The notes below the pieces were generated by a model, which saw only the letters and a program-made list of their open reading frames with translations, searched no databases and was not told the origin of the DNA. The position numbers and the translations under genes are program-made. Positions 5,007-56,729 of a DNA stretch of 64,000 bases are shown one piece after another; positions within the stretch are counted from its first letter, which is position 1; the number at the start of each line of letters is the position of its first letter. Location: the NCBI GenBank assembly GCA_028561875.1, contig JAQQTI010000004.1, positions 62,001 through 126,000 on the forward strand, written 5' to 3'. The DNA is from Methanomassiliicoccaceae archaeon COG_1. GTDB taxonomy: Archaea > Thermoplasmatota > Thermoplasmata > Methanomassiliicoccales > Methanomethylophilaceae.

Positions 5007-5591
5007 ATGTACATGATTACCGAGGCCCAGAGGATCGTGCGCATCCCTCCGTCGAAGCTCGGCTCGGACATCGCCGAAGTCATCGGCGGCATATCGTCCG
5101 AGACCTTCGAGGGCATGCTGCAGGACGACAAGTCCGTGTCGGTCCTCGTCAGCGATGTGGTGCCCGTCGGCAGCGGACGCATAGTCCACGGCGACGGGGC
5201 GGTCTACCAGACGGTCAAGTTCAGGCAGCTGGTGTTCGTCCCGAAGGACAACGAGGTCGTCGAGGGCGTGGTCGTGGAGATTCGCAACTTCGGAGCCTTC
5301 GTCCGCTTCGGCCCCCTGGACGGCCTCATACACGTGAGCCAGGTCATGGACGACCACGTCGACATCGACGAGGTCAATCAGAGGCTGATTGGGAAGGAGA
5401 CCGGCAGGTTCCTGGCCATCGGCGACCACGTCCGCGCGAGGGTCGTCAGCCTCGACCTGAACGAGAAGTCCCCCCAGGACAGCAAGATCGGCCTCACCAT
5501 GCGCCAGACCGGGCTCGGGAAGCTCGAGTGGCTCGACGAGGAGGAGAGGAAGCGCTCGGAGAAGGCCTCCAAGAAAGGGGGCGAGGAGCGA
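5007..5591 (+). CDS. rpoE1: DNA-directed RNA polymerase subunit E' (Rpo7)
   Basis: 194 residues. Stalk subunit of archaeal RNA polymerase, equivalent to Rpb7. It has an N-terminal ribonucleoprotein-like domain, then an S1 RNA-binding domain (GVVVEIRNFGAFVRFG, LDGLIHVSQ). It pairs with Rpo4 and helps promoter opening and RNA exit. The last codon before a stop is GAG, followed by CGA at 5589-5591, which overlaps the ATG of spt4 as CGATG. In other archaea this junction is typically TGATG. The standard frame runs 8 codons further into spt4. Confidence 0.93.
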
Positions 5592-6910: not shown

Positions 6911-6986
6911 GGACCCGTAGTATAGCTTGGATAGCACGGAGGCCTCCGGAGCCCCAGACTCGGGTTCGAATCCGACGGGTCCGCCA
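6911..6986 (+). tRNA. tRNA-Arg (anticodon CCG), structurally unusual, CCA encoded
   Basis: The acceptor stem GGACCCG pairs perfectly with CGGGTCC, followed by G and an encoded CCA. The anticodon loop is CTCCGGA, giving CCG, which reads the Arg codon CGG only. Three irregularities can be seen. The D stem has an A12-C23 mispair. The anticodon stem has A28-C42. The T arm lacks one base on its 3' side, leaving a four-pair stem (TCGG/CCGA) and an eight-base loop containing GTTCGAAT. Both A-C pairs would become A-U by a C-to-U change. It marks the left edge of the AT-rich island. It could be a divergent working tRNA or one damaged by integration. Confidence 0.75.
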
Positions 6987-39966: not shown

Positions 39967-41208
39967 ATGGCTTCGAAGAAGAAGAACATCTACGTCAACG
40001 GGATCGACCAGGTCCCCGTGCCGATGAGGCAGATCGAGATCGTCGAGAGGAAGGGGGTCGGCCACCCCGACTCCGTGGCCGACAACATCGCCGAGACCGT
40101 CTCCCAGGCCCTCTGCAGGATGTACAAGGGCGAGGTCGGCCACGTCCTCCACCACAACACCGACCAGACCGAGGTCGTCGCCGGCCGCGCCCGCTCGCAG
40201 TTCGGCGGCGGCTGCATCATCAAGCCGGTCTACGTCCTCATGGACGGCCGCGCCACCACCGTCATCGACAAGAAGGGCCGGGAGACACTCCTCCCGGTCG
40301 AGTCCACCGCCCTCAGGGGCGTCAGGGAAATGCTGAGGAGGGAGTACCCGCTCCTCGACCTGGATTCCGACATCATCCTCGACACCAAGCTCGGCATGGG
40401 GTCCGACGACCTCACCGGCGTCTACAAGGCGTCGAACTACCTGTCCAACGACACCTCCTTCGGCGTCGGGTACGCCCCGTTCTCCATCACCGACTCCCTC
40501 ACCTACGAGACCGAGAGGTTCATCAACGGGAGGGCCTACAAGAAGAGGCTCCCCGAGGCCGGCCAGGATGTCAAGGTCATGTGCTCCCGCGTGGGCGACA
40601 GGATAACCATGACCATCGCCTGCGCCATGGTCGACAGGTTCATCGACGACCGGGACCACTACCGGTCCGCCGTGGACCAGCTCGCCGCCGACGTCAACGA
40701 GAACGCCCTCGACGTGATAAGCAGGGCGGGCTCCGGCGTCAGCCTCAAGGTCGAGGTCAACACCGGCGACGACTACAAAAGGGGCGTCCTCTACGCGACC
40801 GTCACCGGCCTCTCGCAGGAGAACGGCGACGACGGGTCCGTCGGCCGCGGCAACCGTTGCAACGGCCTGATCACCCCGTACCGTCCCATGTCCATGGAGG
40901 CCACCTCGGGCAAGAACCCCATCACCCACGTCGGGAAGATATACAACGTGCTCTCCTCGATCATCGCGAAGGACGTGGCCAGGAAGGTGAAGGCCGAGGC
41001 GGAGATCCACGTCAGGCTCCTCTCGCAGATAGGGCACACCATCTCCGACCCCCTAAACGCCGCCATCGACATAATCGCGCCGGGGGCCGACGAGAACCCC
41101 AAGCTCCCCAAATGGCGGCAGGAGGCCTATTCCGTCGCCGCGGACTGGCTTGACAACATTGATAAAGTCTCCGAGGATATCATCAATGGCAAGATAAGGA
41201 CGTTCCGA
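39967..41208 (+). CDS. mat: Archaeal S-adenosylmethionine synthetase
   Basis: 413 residues, the normal archaeal length. VERKGVGHPDSVADNIAE, HHNTDQTEVVAGRARSQFGG, TKLGMGSDDLTGVYKA and GRGNRCNGLITPYRPMSMEA are archaeal MAT motifs. The protein ends NGKIRTF, followed by CGA at 41206-41208 and at once a perfect GC hairpin. Under the standard code the frame continues 216 codons across the whole next gene. No CGA among the roughly 25 arginine codons before it. Confidence 0.94.
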
Positions 41209-41228: not shown

Positions 41229-41260
41229 GAGGGGGCCCGCGCCATCCCTGGGTGGACGAA

Positions 41261-41851
41261 ATGAAGATCATGGATATTCCCGCGTTCGGGCCGATGTTCC
41301 GGTTCACGGACGCCAACGTGTACTACTCCCTCTACCTGCTGTCCGACGGCAGGCGCATGGGGAGGAAGAGGCTCGCCGAGCTATCCGGCGTGGGGGAGGG
41401 GAGCATGAGGCGCATCCTCGAGAAGTTCCGCGAATGGGATTTCGTGACCATCAGGCAGACCGGCATAACCATCACCAAGGCCGGCCTGAACTTCCTCGAC
41501 CAGGTGCCGCTGAGGCTCGTCAACGTCGACCTGAGCAGCTCGGGATCCGTCGTCGGCGAGTACGCCCAGGGGATCATCGTCTACGGGGTCTCCAGCAAGA
41601 TCGGCAACGGCATGGAGCAGCGCGACGCCGGCATCAAGGCCGGGGCGGACGGCGCCACCACCATCGTGATCCGCGGCGGCAAGCTCATGATCCCGCCGGA
41701 CTGGGACATGGACGAGCGCACCCCGGAGCTCGCCTTCACCATCCGCAAGCAGACCGGCATCACCGAGGACGACGTCATCATCGTCGGCGGTGGCAGGGAC
41801 AAGATAACCGCCGTCGAGGCCGCCCTCAACGCCGCCTTCGAACTCATATGA
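41261..41851 (+). CDS. DUF4443 winged-helix protein
   Basis: About 196 residues. N-terminal winged helix (RKRLAELSGVGEGSMRRILE, FREWDFVTIRQTGITITKAG), then the DUF4443 ligand-like domain (AGIKAGADGATTIVIRGGK, IIVGGGRDKITAVEAALNAA). An archaeal family of unknown role, probably a regulator. ATG 41261 or GTG 41252. Ends at TGA, and the next gene starts two bases later. Confidence 0.82.
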   Translation: MKIMDIPAFGPMFRFTDANVYYSLYLLSDGRRMGRKRLAELSGVGEGSMRRILEKFREWDFVTIRQTGITITKAGLNFLDQVPLRLVNVDLSSSGSVVGEYAQGIIVYGVSSKIGNGMEQRDAGIKAGADGATTIVIRGGKLMIPPDWDMDERTPELAFTIRKQTGITEDDVIIVGGGRDKITAVEAALNAAFELI

Positions 41852-41852
41852 G

Positions 41853-42806
41853 ATGAAGCACCAGCTCAGCTGGTCCGTCTTCGAGGGGTTCGACGAGATC
41901 CCCGGCCGCGGCTCCCTCGGGAGGAGGCTGGGCGCCCTCGGCGTCGACGGCCTGGAGCTTTTCACCCTCTTCCAGCCCGTGGAGGGCCGTTACAGGGTCC
42001 CGCAGGTGACGTCCGTCCATCTGCCATACGCCGTCGACTGGGTCTCTGCGTGGGAGGGCAGGAGCTACGAGGGCGAGCCCGACGACGTGCGCTACTTCTC
42101 GTTCGGGCGCGACCGGGAGGAGATGGTCTCGAACCTCTGCTCGGCGATCCGCCACGCCGCCGACGTCTCCCCCGCCTACGGCGTGCTCCACGCGGGCAAC
42201 GCCGATATGCGCCGGGTAATGGAGCGCGTGCACGAGGGGAACGACGCCAGGGTGCTCGGGTACTTCGCGGAGATGATGAACCGCGTGGCGTCCGAGCTCG
42301 GGGGCGAGCCCCCGTTCAGGATAGCGTTCGAGAACCTCTGGTGGGACGGCCTGAAGCTGAGGGAGCCCTCCGAGTGGAGGCTACTCGAGGGGAAGCTGGA
42401 GTTCGGCAACTGGGGTTTCGCCCTCGACACCGGGCACCTGATGAACACGTGCGACCGCGCCGTCGACGAGGAGTCCGCGATCGACGGGGTGCTCCGCATC
42501 GTCGACCGCTATCCGCAGGACATGAAGGACAGGATCGGCACGGTGCACCTCGTGCTCAGCACAACGGCGGAGGCGAGACGTTCGTTCGACTGCGTCCCCC
42601 GCGGGGAGGGGGAGCCGTTCTCGGATTTCCTGAGGAGGGTCGGCGAACGCGCCGCGAGCATAGACCAGCACCGCCCGTTCTCCAGCCCGAAGGCGGCGGA
42701 GATCGTCGACGCCGTGCGCCCGGACTTCGTGACGCACGAGCTCTACGGGCGTCTTTCAGGGGATCGCTTCGGCGACCTGCGGCAGCAGCGCGCCCTCTTC
42801 CCGCGA
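41853..42806 (+). CDS. Sugar-phosphate isomerase-like TIM-barrel protein
   Basis: 317 residues of the xylose-isomerase-like (AP endonuclease 2) superfamily: SVHLPYAVDW, YGVLHAGNADM, RIAFENLWWDGL and WGFALDTGHLMNT place the metal ligands Glu, His and Asp along the barrel. The substrate cannot be told. The fold ends near FVTHELYGRLSGDRFGDLRQ, and CGA follows at 42804. The standard frame would continue 183 codons through the next gene's TATA box and coding region. Confidence 0.8.
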
Positions 42807-48949: not shown

Positions 48950-50059
48950 TCGGTCCCACCCCATTACGCCCCGGTAGAGCCTGTGCACCTCGTCGAGGAT
49001 TTCGCCGCACCCGAGTCTCCCGGCGCTCGCGGCGACCGCCGCGACGGACGCCCCCCCGCAGCCCACGCCCTCCTTGATGTAGCCCCACTCGTAGGCCTGC
49101 AGGCCCTCGTACGGGCTCAAGGAGTAGTCCATGTTTATGTAGACGATGGGGATCCTGTCGGAGATGTGCTCCATGAGCCTCTCCATGGAGGAGTTCGGGT
49201 CGGAGATCAGCCACCGGGTGGTGCCCTGCACGATGTTCCCCTGGATGGAGGGGTCGAGCTTCACCGCCGCGGCCATGACGGCCGCCATCTGCGTTCCCCC
49301 CCCGACGATGACCGGCACCCGTTTCGCGGCGCCGATGATCATGCCCACGTCCACGGGCATCATCGGGTCGCCGACGATCTCGATCGCCTTGAGCGGGTCG
49401 TCCGCGAGGCCGCCGATGTCGTAGCCCGCCCTGCCGATGCCCTCGACGGCGGTGTCGTACTTGAGCTGCTTCGGGTTCTTCGGCGAGGACGAGCTCACGA
49501 GGTTCTCCCTCACCGTGCCCATCGCGAGGAGCACCGCCAGCGCGGTCGTGGTTCCGCCGGCGCAGGACTCGGAGACGACGATGTAGTCGTGCGTCCTCGC
49601 GAGCTGCTCGCCGAGTATCCTCCCGTATTCGAAGCTCCGCCCGACGTTGCTAACCGATCTCCCGCTGGTGATCTTCTCGCCGTACGTCCCGCCGACCTCG
49701 ATGCAGGGGATGTTCGGGACGACCTTGCACCCGCCGTTGACTATGAGCATCGGCATGCCGGAGAGCTCGAGGGAGGCCTTTGTCAGCGTCGCGGGGGTGG
49801 GGATCCCCCCGGGGTTGATGGGCAGCCCCCTCATGCACACCACCTTGCCGAGGACGAGGAACTCCGCGTCGGCGGCGGGGGTGAATAGGGTGAGCTCGGG
49901 CGTATCGCCCGCCTCGGATATCCCGGGTATGGTCGACGTCAGGGTGTTGGCGACGGTGCAGGTGAACACGCCCCTCCTCCCCCAGATGCGGGAGAGGACG
50001 TCCTCCGCAATCCCGCGGTCTCCGCGCACGCCCAGGGAGGGAGGGAGTTCGAACGTCAT
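48950..50059 (-). CDS. CobT-like nicotinate-nucleotide phosphoribosyltransferase family protein
   Basis: 369 residues of the archaeal family related to nicotinate-nucleotide-dimethylbenzimidazole phosphoribosyltransferase. GISEAGDTPELTLFTPAADA, GIPTPATLTKASLEL, VVSESCAGGTTTALAVLLAM and GTTRWLISDPNSSMERL are its conserved blocks. Likely role in activating or attaching the lower ligand of the corrinoids needed for methyl transfer. CGA 48950 follows GVMGWD. The standard frame would add 31 arginine-rich codons and end at TAA 48857. ATG overlaps the apgM stop. Confidence 0.85.
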
Positions 50060-51057
50060 CTCCCGGCCCCCAATACCTTGGGCACCACCTCGGGCAGTGC
50101 GAAGTGCTTCCCGTCGCCTATCGGGACGTTGGTCCGGAAGGGTACGGTGGTCAGGATGTGCTCCCCGGTCACGCACGAGGTGCCGTGGTCGGCGAAGAAC
50201 ACCATCCGGGGGTTGTCGTCGAAGTACTCCCTCATGAGGGCGTCGGTCTCCTCGAGGACGGCGATCTTCCTTCTGCAGTCCTTCTGGTGGCTGTACTCAT
50301 CCACCTCGTCGATGTGCAGGAAGACGTTGCCCTCCCTCAGAGCGCGCCTCGCGACGGGGAACCTGTCGGAAATCTCGGGGACGTTGTAGACCCTATGACC
50401 CAGCGTGGCGGCGACGCCCAGGGCGGTGGGGCTGTCGGATACGGCCGTCATCCTCCCGATCCCCGGGAACGGCGGGTCGACCTCCGCCTTGAAGCCGCAG
50501 GCCCACGGGTACAGCGTCAGGCCGTCCATCTCTTCGGCCACCCGCGCGACGAGCTGCCCGAGCTCCCCCTCGATGGGGACGTACGCCCCGTCGGCGGGAG
50601 GCGACGGGGTGTCCGGGATGCCGCAGTCCCAGTACATCGTTATGACCGCCCTCCCGTGGACGAAGAACTCGATCTGCGGGGAGCGGCCGTCGAGGAGGTG
50701 CATGTTGCCCCTCACGGCGGCGGCGAGGTCGTCGGCGAGGTCGTCGACGCCGTACGCCCAGTGGACGGTCCCTCCCCGTATGTACGCCGGGCTCATGCGG
50801 AAGGCCATGCGCCCGGGGCGCATGTCCATTCCCAGCCCCTGCGCCTCCAATGCGGCGCGGGGGGTGCGGGGGGGATGCCCGGTCCAGAACTCGTTGAGGA
50901 ACAGCTGGGTGTACCCCCTGCCGTCGGTGGTGTTCAGATGGGGGGCCCTGCCGCGGATGAACGGCATATCCGCCACTTCGTAGGGTTTCCTGCCCCCCAG
51001 GGCGGGGTTCGGGTCGTCCTCGAGCCCGTCGAGCAGCACGAACAGGGTGTTGGCCAT
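50056..51057 (-). CDS. apgM: 2,3-bisphosphoglycerate-independent phosphoglycerate mutase-like (ApgM family)
   Basis: 333 residues of the alkaline-phosphatase superfamily. NTLFVLLDGLEDDPNPALGG at the start, FLHIDEVDEYSHQKD and VFFADHGTSCVTGEHI near the end are the metal-ligand segments of the archaeal enzyme. Interconverts 3- and 2-phosphoglycerate and fits with enolase nearby. In the standard code it is the C-terminal part of a 1117-residue ORF with hypF. CGA 51172 and a TATA-like GTTTATCTATTC separate the two genes. Ends at TGA, overlapping the cobT-like start. Confidence 0.85.
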   Translation of the reverse strand: MANTLFVLLDGLEDDPNPALGGRKPYEVADMPFIRGRAPHLNTTDGRGYTQLFLNEFWTGHPPRTPRAALEAQGLGMDMRPGRMAFRMSPAYIRGGTVHWAYGVDDLADDLAAAVRGNMHLLDGRSPQIEFFVHGRAVITMYWDCGIPDTPSPPADGAYVPIEGELGQLVARVAEEMDGLTLYPWACGFKAEVDPPFPGIGRMTAVSDSPTALGVAATLGHRVYNVPEISDRFPVARRALREGNVFLHIDEVDEYSHQKDCRRKIAVLEETDALMREYFDDNPRMVFFADHGTSCVTGEHILTTVPFRTNVPIGDGKHFALPEVVPKVLGAGR

Positions 51058-51171
51058 GGGATCGCTTCGCGTACGGCGGCCCGGGGTATGCCCGTCGCCT
51101 ATGGATGGATGTATCGTACGCCGAATAGATAAACCGTGCAGGCAGTGGAGGCATGCTCCAACGCCAGGGGC

Positions 51172-53340
51172 TCGCAGGCGGCGGAGGGCGATCGCCGCCT
51201 GGCCGGTGGAGATGCCGCCGTCGCCGTTCGGGACGCGGCCGTGCACGACGAGCTCCATGCCCCTCTCCTCGGCGAGCTCCTTCGCCATCCTGGCTATGGG
51301 AACGTCGTAGGAGACCCCGCCGGTGATGCCGATGCGCCCCTCCCCCTCCGCCTCGGCCGCCTCCGCCGCGGCCGAGACCATCTCGGAGAGGATGCCGCGC
51401 ACTGCGGAGTACGCGGCGTCCGCCTTGTTCTCCTCGGCGTCGATGAGCGGGAAGAGGCGCGCCGTCTCGATGACGCCGTTCGACGTCCCTGTCCCGAACC
51501 CGTCGATCAGCCGCCCCCTTGCGAGCAGGGGCTCGAGCTTCATCGCGGGCTCGCCGTCGTACGTCCTCCTTTCGCAGACTCCGGCGGAGTACGCTATGGC
51601 GTCGAGCACCCTCCCGAAGGACGACGCCCCCACGCTCTTCGGCATGAGCCTGCGGAGGACCTCCGCCTCGCCCTCCCCGAACGAGGAGTTCTCCTCCCCG
51701 TTCATCTCGTCGATGGCGAAGCGCAGGCGGCGCAGGTCGTGGAGCGCCCGCTCCGAGCCGAGCAGCGGGATGTACTGGAGGTGCGCGCATCTCCTATACG
51801 AGTCGAACCCGCAGGAGAGGACCTCCCCGCCCCATGCCATGCCGTCGTCGCCGTGCCCGGTGCCGTCCACCGCGATCGCGGCGATGTGCTCCACGTCCCC
51901 GCGGTCCACCATGAGCGAGGCGGCGTGCGCCCAATGGTGCTGCACGTCGATCAGCTCCGCGCCGCACTCCTCGGCGAGGCGCCTCGCGAATCTCCTGTTG
52001 GCGTAACCGGGGTGCAGGTCCTCGGCGACGATCTGCGGGGCGCATCCCGTCAGCTCCATCTGCAGCCTCACCGCCTCCTCGAGGTACTCGGGGACGCCTA
52101 GGCCCCCGCCGTCGCCGATGTGTTGCGTCGGGCAGATCCTCCCGCCGGCGGCGACCGCCCCGGCGAGGCTCTCCTGCGCGCCGACGGCGGCCGCGGAACC
52201 CTTCCACGGGACATCGTAGAAAGAGGGGACGCTCCCCCTCGACTTGCGTATGTAGAATGTGTCGGCGCCGAACATCCGGAGGACGCTGTCGTCGGCGCGG
52301 TTGACGATCTCCTGGTCGTGCAGGAGGTACATGTCGGCGCCGAGCCCCATTACGTCCCCGTCACCGATGATCATCGGCTCGCCGGGGGCGTTCGCCGAGG
52401 TCATGACGAGGGCGTCCTCCTTGAGGGCGTCGAAGAGCAGGTGCTGCACCCCGGCGTACGGGAGGAAGACCCCTATGTTGCCGAGGCCGGGGGAGACGAG
52501 CTCCGTGACGCCGCCCCTTCTCTTCTCGGCGAGGACTATCGGGCGGTGCGGCGACTGGAGCACCTCGACCTCCTCGTCCGTCGGCCTGCAGTACCGCCTC
52601 GCGGCTTCGACATCCCTCGCCATGATCGCGAAGGGCTTCTGCTCGCGGCGGTACCACTTGCGCATGCGCGCGGTCTCGGAGAGGATGCAGCATATGTGCA
52701 TGCCGCCCCAGCTCTTGGCGACGCCTATCCCCCCCTCCCCCAGCATCTCCGCGAACCTCCTGACGGGCTCGCCGGGAACCTCGCCCCCGGAGCGGTCCAG
52801 CAGGCGATAGCGCGGCCCGCATTCCGGACAGCAAACGGTCTGGTGGTGGAACCTCCTGTCGCCCGGATCGGCGTACTCCCTGCCGCATGCGGGGCACATC
52901 GGGAAAGCGTCCATCGCCGTCCTCCGCCTGTCGTACGGGAGGGAGCGCAGGAGGGTGAACCGCGGCCCGCAGCCCGTGCAGGTGGTGAACGGGTACCCCA
53001 TCCTCCTGCCGGAGCGCATGTCCGCAAGGCACTCCGGGCAGACCGCGGTGTCCGCGGGGATGGGCGCGCCGAGGCTCGCATCGTCCTTGGATTCGGTTAT
53101 GGAGAAGCCCTCGGCCGAGGGGTCGAGATCGCGCTCCCTCCTCTCTATGCTCTCGATCCTCGCGAGCGGCGGGAGGTTGCGGAGCAGCTCGGCGAGGAGC
53201 TCCTCCCCCCTGTCCGCGTCGATCGTCACGCAAGAGCCGTCGTTGCGGACGGTGCCGCGGGCGCCGACGGCCTCCGCGGCGCGGTAGACGGCGGGACGGA
53301 AGCCCACCCCCTGCACCGTGCCCCTGATGATGAATCTCAT
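51172..53340 (-). CDS. hypF: Carbamoyltransferase HypF
   Basis: 722 residues, close to the usual 750. Acylphosphatase domain (FIIRGTVQGVGFRPAVYRAA), two zinc-finger blocks (CPECLADM, CTGCGPRF, CPACGREY, CPECGPRY), YrdC domain (GMHICCILSE, PHRPIVLAEK) and the Kae1-like carbamoyltransferase domain (VAVDGTGHGDDGMAWGGEVL). Makes the cyanide ligands of [NiFe] hydrogenases. Frame read in full with no internal CGA. It ends at CGA 51172 after GQAAIALRRL, where other HypF proteins stop. Start MRFIIRG at 53340. Confidence 0.94.
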
Positions 53341-53451
53341 GTCTTCCCTCCGCCGACGCGATGGCCCCCATCCCCTCCGGCGCCGCCGAGCGGGATGCCG
53401 GGCCCGCACTCCCCGCGCACGTAGCCGTCGAAAGCGGCGCGAGCCCCCGCG

Positions 53452-54728: not shown

Positions 54729-55376
54729 TCAGAGCCCTGCGGTGTACTTGTACGGATTCACGCGGAGCGCGGCCTCCGCCTCGAGCTCGGTGAGCCCCGC
54801 TCCCCGCGCCACCAGCCTGGCCCGCGCCTCGCTCATGAGGTCCTCCGGCGCGTGCGCGTCGGAATCGACCACCATGTCCGCTTTGGCCTCGCGGGCCACG
54901 GAGCACACGTGCCCGTTGGCTATGTTGTGGCCCATCCTGCCGGAGATCTCGATAAGGACCCCGTTCTCCTTGGCGGCCTCCGCCTCGCTCACCGAGAGCA
55001 TCCCGGGATGGGCGAGGACGTCGATGTCCGGGTTCTCAACGCTCGCGCGGTTCGTACCCGCCTCCACCGGTTCGACGGGCGTCTCGCCATGGACCACGAT
55101 CCATGCCGCACCGCATCTCCTGGCGGTCTTGGCCACCTCGGCGATCCTCGCCGGGCGCACGTGCGTTATCTCTACGCCCGGCAGCACTCTTATCTCATCA
55201 TCGCCCAAACCCGCGGCCCTCACCAGGTGCTCCGCCACCCACTCTACGTTCGTGGCGTCGACGTGGTCGGTGATGGCGATGAGGTCGTGGCCGAGGACCT
55301 TCGCCCTCCTGATGAGCTCGGCGGGGACGAGCTCCCCGTCGCTGTATACCGTATGCATGTGCAGGTCGGCCCTCAC
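54729..55376 (-). CDS. PHP-domain phosphoesterase
   Basis: 215 residues. [13 protein letters not shown] (first two metal histidines), [27 protein letters not shown] and DSDAHAPED cover the PHP metal site. Starts at GTG inside the hisIE stop, so co-transcribed with the his genes. It could be a histidinol-phosphatase (HisK type), which the context supports, or another PHP hydrolase. Confidence 0.85.
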
Positions 55377-55972
55377 TGTCTCCTCTCCGAAAGAACCTCG
55401 TACATCCTGTCGAGCGGTATGCCCTCCTTCACCACGGCGACGAGGGCGTGATAAACGAGGTCCGCCAGTTCCGAGGCCTCCCCGTCCTTGTCGTGGTCCT
55501 TGACCGCGAGGGCGAACTCGGCCGCCTCCTCGACAATCTTCTTGCACATCTTCGTCTCGTCGGCGAAGAGCTTACAGGTGTAGCTCCCCCCCTCGGGGTC
55601 GGCCCTCCGCTCCTCGATCACCCTGAGCAGGTCGGGAATGACCTGCGCCGTGCCCTCGGCGCTCCCCCAGACCTGCTTGAAGAAGCAGGAGGGCGCGCCG
55701 GTGTGGCAGGCCGCGCCGGTCTGCTCCACCTTCACGAGCAGGGCATCGGAGTCGCAGTCCGCCTGCATGGACTTGATCTTCTGCACGTGGCCGGACTCCT
55801 CCCCCTTCCTCCACAGCCTCTGCCGGCTGCGGGACCAGAAGCAGGTGCGCCCCGTGCGGAGCATCTCCTCCACCGCCTCCTCGTTGGAGTAGGCGAGCAT
55901 GAGCACCTCGTTGGTGCGGAAGTCCTGCACTACGACGGGCAGGAGGCCCTCGGCGTCGAATTTCAGATCCAA
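55373..55972 (-). CDS. hisIE: HisI-HisE bifunctional phosphoribosyl-AMP cyclohydrolase/ATP pyrophosphatase
   Basis: 199 residues. [17 protein letters not shown] and the zinc motif [20 protein letters not shown] make up HisI, and [19 protein letters not shown] makes up HisE. Catalyses the second and third steps of histidine synthesis. Start TTG 55972 directly follows CGA 55973-55975 of hisF (CGATTG). The standard frame joins both genes into 451 residues. Confidence 0.87.
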
Positions 55973-56725
55973 TCGCCTCACCTCGATGCCCCTCTCCCGC
56001 AGGTACTCGTGCACCTGCGCCGGGGTGCACTGCCCGTAGTGGAAGATGCTCGCCGCGAGGGCCGCGGCGCAGTCGGTCCGCTCGAACACCTCGTAGATGT
56101 GCTCCATGCTCCCGCACCCGCCGGAGGCGATGACGGGGACGCTCACCTCGTCGACCACGGCTTTGGTGAGCTCTATGTCGTACCCGTCCGCGGTACCGTC
56201 GGCGCCGATGCTGGTGAGGAGGATCTCCCCGGCGCCCATGTCCTCGGCCTCGGCGGCCCATTCGAGGGCGTCGAGGCCGGCCGGCCTCGTCCCGCCGGCG
56301 ACGAACACCTCGTACCTGCCCCCGACCTTCTTCGCGTCGATGGCGACGACCACGCACTGCCTGCCGAAGCGCTCCGCGCTCTCGGAGATGATGTCCGGGT
56401 CGGCGACGGCGGCGGAGTTGATGGAGACCTTGTCGGCGCCGGCGAGGAGGGCGGAGTGCACGTCCTCGGCGGAGCGGACGCCGCCCCCCACGGTTAGGGG
56501 GACGAACACCCTCTCCGCGGTCTCCCTCACAAGGCCGAGGGTCGTCCCCCTCGATTCCTGCGTGGCGGCAATGTCGAGGAAGGCGATCTCGTCCGCGCCC
56601 TCCCTGGAATACCTCTCGGCCAGGTCGGGAGGGTGGCCGACGTCCTTCAGGTCAGCGAACCCCGTTCCCTTGACGACTTTGCCGTCCTTGACGTCCAGGC
56701 AGGGTATGACCCTTTTCGCGAGCAT
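55973..56725 (-). CDS. hisF: Imidazole glycerol phosphate synthase cyclase subunit HisF
   Basis: 250 residues, the exact family length if CGA 55973 is the end. [60 protein letters not shown] and [10 protein letters not shown] follow the TIM-barrel order with the two catalytic Asp residues. ATG 56725, or GTG 56728. The start overlaps the hisB stop region. Confidence 0.9.
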
Positions 56726-56729
56726 CACC

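Follow-up and report, generated by a model that had tools for sequence, protein, structure and literature searches.

CGA appears to have turned from an arginine codon into a stop codon in a group of gut-dwelling methanogenic archaea

Judged from genome sequences, the codon CGA, which stands for arginine (Arg) in nearly all other organisms, appears to have turned from an Arg codon into a stop codon in a group of gut-dwelling methanogenic archaea. The window analyzed here is a stretch of 64,000 bp from Methanomassiliicoccaceae archaeon COG_1 (G000:C4:62001-126000), whose source genome comprises 1.51 Mb in six contigs with a listed completeness of 86%; within it, the standard code (translation table 11) fuses the neighboring genes hypF and apgM. 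In COG_1, CGA is missing inside genes, is present at gene ends where relatives have TGA, occurs once in the gene for the release factor aRF1, and the cognate tRNA-Arg(UCG) is retained. We consider it very likely that these observations have a joint explanation, namely, that in ordinary genes CGA has ceased to be an Arg codon and acts as a stop alongside TGA, TAA, and TAG, with aRF1 terminating there and gauging its own level. The reading of CGA by aRF1 and the feedback of aRF1 level are the parts of this explanation that we infer.

The sequence-only reading had dissolved an apparent 1117-residue HypF-ApgM fusion at 50056-53340 into two genes, with HypF ending at CGA 51172, and both proposals are borne out. 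The 1117-aa table-11 open reading frame (ORF) is real, whereas its span has to be corrected: the ORF occupies 50056..53409 on the minus strand, and 53340 is the ATG that is most likely the start of HypF, rather than 53409. A codon scan of this frame finds just two CGA codons, one at residue 746 (51174-51172) and one at residue 781 (51069-51067); both fall within the linker between the two proteins. The hypF gene (51172..53340, minus strand) has 722 codons ending at the first CGA, and the match to TIGR00143 (residues 5–718 of the 722-aa protein) is complete before it. The triplet 51172..51174 (minus strand), read here as the stop codon of hypF, is aligned with TGA in G001 and G004, two genomes of the same genus, in which TGA stands right after the last aligned HypF residue and the two genes are adjacent and unfused; they are likewise unfused in the CGA-using genome G054. 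The second gene (50056..51057, minus strand; 333 codons, stop TGA) matches PF01676 (metalloenzyme superfamily) and is separate in G001 and G004. It is called ApgM-like, because its score of 79 with TIGR00306 (apgM) is far under the cut-off of 320. Between the genes lie the second CGA (51067..51069, minus strand) and the claimed TATA-like string, which is indeed present in the sequence at 51123-51134 of the minus strand, as a putative element upstream of apgM.

Genome-wide counts rest on approximately 474 kb sampled from the COG_1 genome, with a GC content of 0.62. MetK places this genome among relatives from the Methanomethylophilaceae; the nearest named records show 76–78% MetK identity and comprise methanogen and archaeal assemblies whose sources include rumen and horse. 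The genomes compared were divided into COG_1; the 13 other members of its genus (14 genomes in the comparison set with COG_1, the nearest being G001 at 87% MetK identity); a sister group of 20 genomes; the four genomes G022, G031, G032, and G033; and 36 others, termed CGA users. The CGA-free groups were defined post hoc, from the counts and the tree. Four genomes with zero CGA, G036, G041, G042, and G051 (138, 191, 271, and 56 Arg codons, respectively), were classed as users because of their tree position or several CGA codons in aRF1: G036, G041, and G042 have two to four each, and G051, which is off the tree, has one.

In the main count, either CGA or a standard stop delimited the query proteins, and matches with internal stops were dropped. 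Not one of 2622 aligned Arg codons in conserved coding sequence of COG_1 is CGA. The 13 other genus genomes yield two CGA among 5043 Arg codons, each of them at the edge of a gap or in a poorly aligned stretch; the sister group has a single CGA among 4469, which is the aRF1 codon discussed below; and G022, G031, G032, and G033 have none among 1072. Among the users, by comparison, 205 of 6987 Arg codons are CGA, and 32 of the 36 genomes contribute one or more. This pattern is not due to chance, because CGA triplets are over-represented in the DNA (1.76 times the uniform expectation on both strands of the sampled COG_1 genome) and yet missing from conserved coding sequence. No codon is used less than CGA in COG_1. 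The continued use of CAA and CAG makes it unlikely that reading of the first base has been lost in general.

Stop-to-stop ORFs built with table 11 do contain apparent internal CGA codons, namely, 13 and 27 in two counts for COG_1 and 31 in G001. Inspection of alignments assigned all of these, except codon 25 of aRF1, to positions upstream of gene starts or to wrong frames, which look conserved because another gene overlaps. As the table-11 count is misleading in this respect, it was redone with CGA as an additional ORF boundary. Four internal CGA codons of COG_1 in an earlier count all came from one match with an internal stop, dropped later. The CGA-bounded design is blind to genes with CGA conserved throughout, and the table-11 frames, in which aRF1 codon 25 is the single true internal CGA, cover only COG_1 (171 genes) and G001 (153 genes).

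At gene ends, CGA is common. The stops of 192 sampled COG_1 genes, defined as CGA-code ORFs for which another genome has a homologue, are CGA in 68 cases, TGA in 105, TAA in 16, and TAG in 3. Of the 68 genes with a CGA end, 45 have their next standard stop 20 or more codons away, and 17 have it 100 or more codons away. Of 55 exact ends in COG_1 (the codon directly after the homologue's last residue), 32 are standard stops and 11 are CGA (12/56 before matches with internal stops were dropped), the remaining 12 being shared by eleven other codons. Exact ends at CGA number 4/163 in the other genus genomes, 10/126 in the sister group, and 0/162 in the users. In a looser count, for which the stop may lie up to 15 codons from the aligned end, G018 (record SIG8) has 11 CGA and 8 TGA among 23 ends and G028 has CGA at 4 of 10, as against 3 of 316 in the users.

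A metK chimera of 629 residues, covering a DUF4443 gene, had been predicted for the window, and metK (39967..41208, plus strand; PF01941 residues 6–409) does stop at CGA 41206-41208, at the codon where all other copies with an aligned C-terminus have TGA. Its table-11 extension has no family match and is crossed out of frame by the DUF4443 gene (41252..41851, plus strand; PF14544, E 5.6e-34). G001 and G005 both have CGA at the end of the cytidylate kinase gene, which is followed in frame by a TruB/Cbf5-type pseudouridine synthase; programmed read-through was considered here and rejected, as the second frame is merely this next gene. C-to-U editing of the mRNA, which would convert CGA stops into UGA, would make any change of aRF1 unnecessary. 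Given how plentiful CGA is out of frame, such editing would have to recognize the frame; we know of no editing of this kind from archaea and regard it as highly unlikely.

By matches to eRF1 domain 2, the COG_1 genome has a single gene for aRF1. Exactly one CGA is present in aRF1 of all 14 genus genomes, at codon 25, just ahead of the GTE motif, and of 18 of the 20 sister genomes, at codon 78; G022, G031, G032, and G033 also have one each, at codons 11, 123, 78, and 78, respectively. Thus, 36 of 38 CGA-free genomes have one CGA in aRF1 (37 of 42 if G036, G041, G042, and G051 are added). Of the two exceptions, G018 is a true one, with CGC at codon 78 and an aRF1 gene that itself ends in CGA, and in G021 the aRF1 is a fragment from residue 114 on. 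Within the genus, CGA accounts for 14 of 299 Arg codons in aRF1, versus 5 of 7589 elsewhere in the looser count, none of the five surviving inspection. The users are also enriched (59/765 in aRF1, 192/6574 elsewhere). Of 102 genomes covered by a pattern search across the family, 31 have CGA at codon 25 of aRF1, among them all 14 of the genus, and 30 have it at codon 78, including 24 of the 31 members of genus g9; judged by this signature, g9 is probably the sister group.

Conservation around these codons is high. Codon 25 is among just six of 121 fourfold sites in the genus aRF1 that show no variation. Among the 18 sister genomes, codon 78 and the third base of codon 77 belong to just six invariant fourfold sites out of 115; the latter base is always T despite an Ala/Ser change, and C always follows CGA. 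The invariance of the flanking bases points to selection on the nucleotides that surround the CGA. The frame runs on in phase through the codon, hence no programmed frameshift is involved. Other synonymous positions are fixed as well: codon 186 is CGT throughout the 14 genus and 18 sister genomes, and codon 180 is GGA throughout the sister group. Elsewhere in the family, aRF1 of G068 (L278) has one in-frame TAG, perhaps pyrrolysine or an error, and G071 has a second, divergent aRF1-like gene (G071:C12:84929-85837; 36% identity) beside a normal one.

A tRNA-Arg(UCG) whose helices covary or are conserved is present in all 14 genus genomes, COG_1 included, in G022, G031, G032, and G033, and in 15 of the 19 sister genomes searched, the search having covered all but G046. 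It was not found in G018, G021, G029, and G038, which may be incomplete. A general loss of this tRNA as the cause of CGA avoidance is ruled out by its retention in most CGA-free genomes. Since CGA is otherwise missing, the tRNA is likely kept to read the aRF1 codon, and it may also read CGG. We read its persistence as incomplete capture of CGA, with one sense site left, in aRF1. Most genus copies have U as the discriminator base (loci L176-L188, L325-L330, L361, L365, and L366 were surveyed), and in many sister-group copies the last pair of the anticodon stem (31-39) is A-A or C-A; either feature could weaken the reading of CGA.

Besides the whole genus, the CGA-free state extends to the sister group and some further lineages, and in several of these CGA also serves as an occasional stop. 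In a tree of MetK and aRF1 from 62 genomes, G022 is placed beside the genus, the sister group forms its own clade, and G032/G033 and G031 fall elsewhere; the position of the lone aRF1 CGA varies between these lineages. No MetK match was obtained for five of the 14 genus genomes (G005, G006, G008, G010, and G011), one of them listed as 99% complete. Most of the genomes are metagenome assemblies, which would favor an assembly or sequencing artefact; the recurrence of the pattern in many separate assemblies, including the single-contig G001, G002, and G004, makes this the least credible of the alternatives.

Several points weigh against CGA as a stop. With tRNA-Arg(UCG) kept in COG_1, decoding of CGA as Arg is possible in principle. 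In G022, G031, G032, and G033, CGA stops are found at none of 27 exact ends, although these genomes are CGA-free. The NIKS, GTE, and YRCDSxF motifs of aRF1, which we take to be its known codon-recognition motifs, show no difference between the users and the CGA-free genomes. The CGA-free state with one aRF1 CGA seems to have had several origins or a partial reversal. The binomial value of 7e-12, obtained for 11 CGA among the 23 non-standard exact-end codons of COG_1 with CGA at about 2.75% in the DNA, takes no account of relatedness, nor do the Fisher values, and per-genome samples are often small. When aRF1 is examined for changes that go with the CGA-free state, just two columns, 111 and 284, exceed the threshold; neither lies in a recognition motif, and their difference is probably one of ancestry.

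The unchanged motifs would suit a hungry codon, that is, a CGA left unread, at which ribosomes stall and are freed by rescue factors with no release by aRF1, and so would the four CGA-free genomes in which the tRNA was not found. Such a codon leaves unexplained both why aRF1 in particular retains exactly one CGA and why the tRNA is retained in most genomes, and we consider it unlikely. Under the standard code, CGA would be merely a rare Arg codon, the fusions would be real read-through proteins, and the long frames would follow from GC-rich DNA. The presence of the tRNA, the rarity of CGA across the whole family, and the GC content of COG_1 are compatible with this, but a codon absent from 2622 internal Arg positions yet found at a fifth of exact ends, at the above binomial value, is not, nor are a metK extension that overlaps another gene and matches no family and the separate hypF and apgM of the relatives; the standard code is thus very unlikely to hold here. 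The view of the sequence-only reading that CGA is a stop and the fusions are artefacts of the standard code is supported by the TGA-to-CGA swaps, the lack of CGA in conserved genes, and the agreement of independent assemblies. The wide spread of the state outside COG_1 and the lone conserved CGA of aRF1 go beyond what that reading contained.

Termination at CGA by aRF1 would work as follows. The factor would terminate at CGA unless outcompeted by tRNA-Arg(UCG). When aRF1 is plentiful, it would stop at its own in-frame CGA, and its translation would end early; when it is scarce, the tRNA would read the codon as Arg and full-length aRF1 would be made, so that the aRF1 gene acts as a gauge. Termination would make CGA unusable inside other genes and tolerated only at their ends, where a change from TGA to CGA would be nearly neutral, and GC pressure would then convert many TGA stops to CGA.

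Other genes of the window conform to this pattern. Many standard-code chimeras had been anticipated for the genome, in agreement with the 68 CGA ends among 192 genes, and the hisF and TIM-barrel examples hold together with metK. The hisF gene (55973..56728, minus strand; TIGR00735 residues 2–251) ends at CGA 55975-55973, which separates it from hisIE (55373..55972, minus strand; PRK02759) immediately after it. The TIM-barrel gene (41853..42806, plus strand) ends at CGA 42804-42806, which in comparison with the G001 homologue lies one codon beyond the aligned end and at most one residue from the homologue's C-terminus; the downstream segment 42807-43355 shows no recognized family. Two further genes end at CGA where the G001 homologue has TGA at the aligned codon (5007..5591, plus strand, and 48950..50059, minus strand). 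The sole tRNA of the window is tRNA-Arg(CCG) (6911..6986, plus strand), with a T arm one base short. CGG nonetheless makes up about 10% of COG_1 Arg codons, and tRNA-Arg(UCG) perhaps helps to read it; in G005, unlike the other sampled genus genomes, CGG is the main Arg codon (299/546). The segment 57856-61536 carries a frame of more than 1200 codons with an unusual composition, including just 12 Arg codons and no CGA.

Sense-to-stop changes are described for UCA and UCG in sphaeroplealean mitochondria, in the excerpts of PMC6821328, and for UUA and UCA in peDinoflagellate plastids and UUR in pedinophyte mitochondria, in those of PMC12574857, where the plastids are given as the first such case beyond mitochondria. 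As in COG_1, a sense codon is gone inside genes and present at their ends, and the extent of its use varies by lineage. COG_1 differs in having a cellular archaeal genome and in the codon, CGA. Furthermore, the cognate tRNA is lost and the release factor altered in its codon-reading region in the organelles, whereas the CGA-free archaea mostly keep tRNA-Arg(UCG) and the recognition motifs of their aRF1 (aRF1/eRF1 family) are unchanged. Codetta identified sense-to-sense reassignments of CGA and CGG (to Trp and Gln) in low-GC bacteria (PMC8629427), and the 12 of 29 places covered in that paper contain no stop reassignment. Going by these places, a rare Arg codon acquires a new meaning there as in COG_1, where the sampled GC content is high and the new meaning is stop.

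By analogy, the CGA in the aRF1 mRNA, which together with the mostly retained tRNA-Arg(UCG) forms the strongest of the new evidence, suggests autoregulation similar to that of the bacterial release factor RF2, whose gene prfB has an early in-frame stop codon and loses this motif alongside heavy use of RF2-specific stops (excerpts of PMC12421855). Both factors, as far as these excerpts go, have in their genes an early codon thought to be read by the factor itself, and G018, with heavy CGA stop use alongside a lost aRF1 CGA, may parallel the loss of the prfB motif. The archaeal factor differs in that its CGA is in phase, and full-length protein would come from sense reading by tRNA-Arg(UCG) and not from a frameshift. 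Another paper (PMC13245932) reportedly deals with the loss of prfB autoregulation.

The searchable literature, with most preprints and subscription journals outside its scope, contains neither a CGA stop nor an archaeal sense-to-stop case, and within it such changes are confined to mitochondria and one plastid lineage and never concern a cellular genome. We therefore regard it as probable, with less assurance than the stop reading itself, that this is the first sense-to-stop reassignment in a cellular genome, seen at several stages in one archaeal family: termination and self-regulation by aRF1, purging of CGA elsewhere, a GC-driven spread of CGA stops, and a tRNA-Arg(UCG) surviving largely for one codon and gone where that codon is lost (G018). 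In practical terms, gene callers that use the standard code fuse or overextend roughly one third of COG_1 genes. For the family, the related genomes trace the change from a rare Arg codon, through one retained in a single gene, to a frequent stop, and the lone CGA of aRF1 offers a directly testable account of how a reassignment may start and stay in check.

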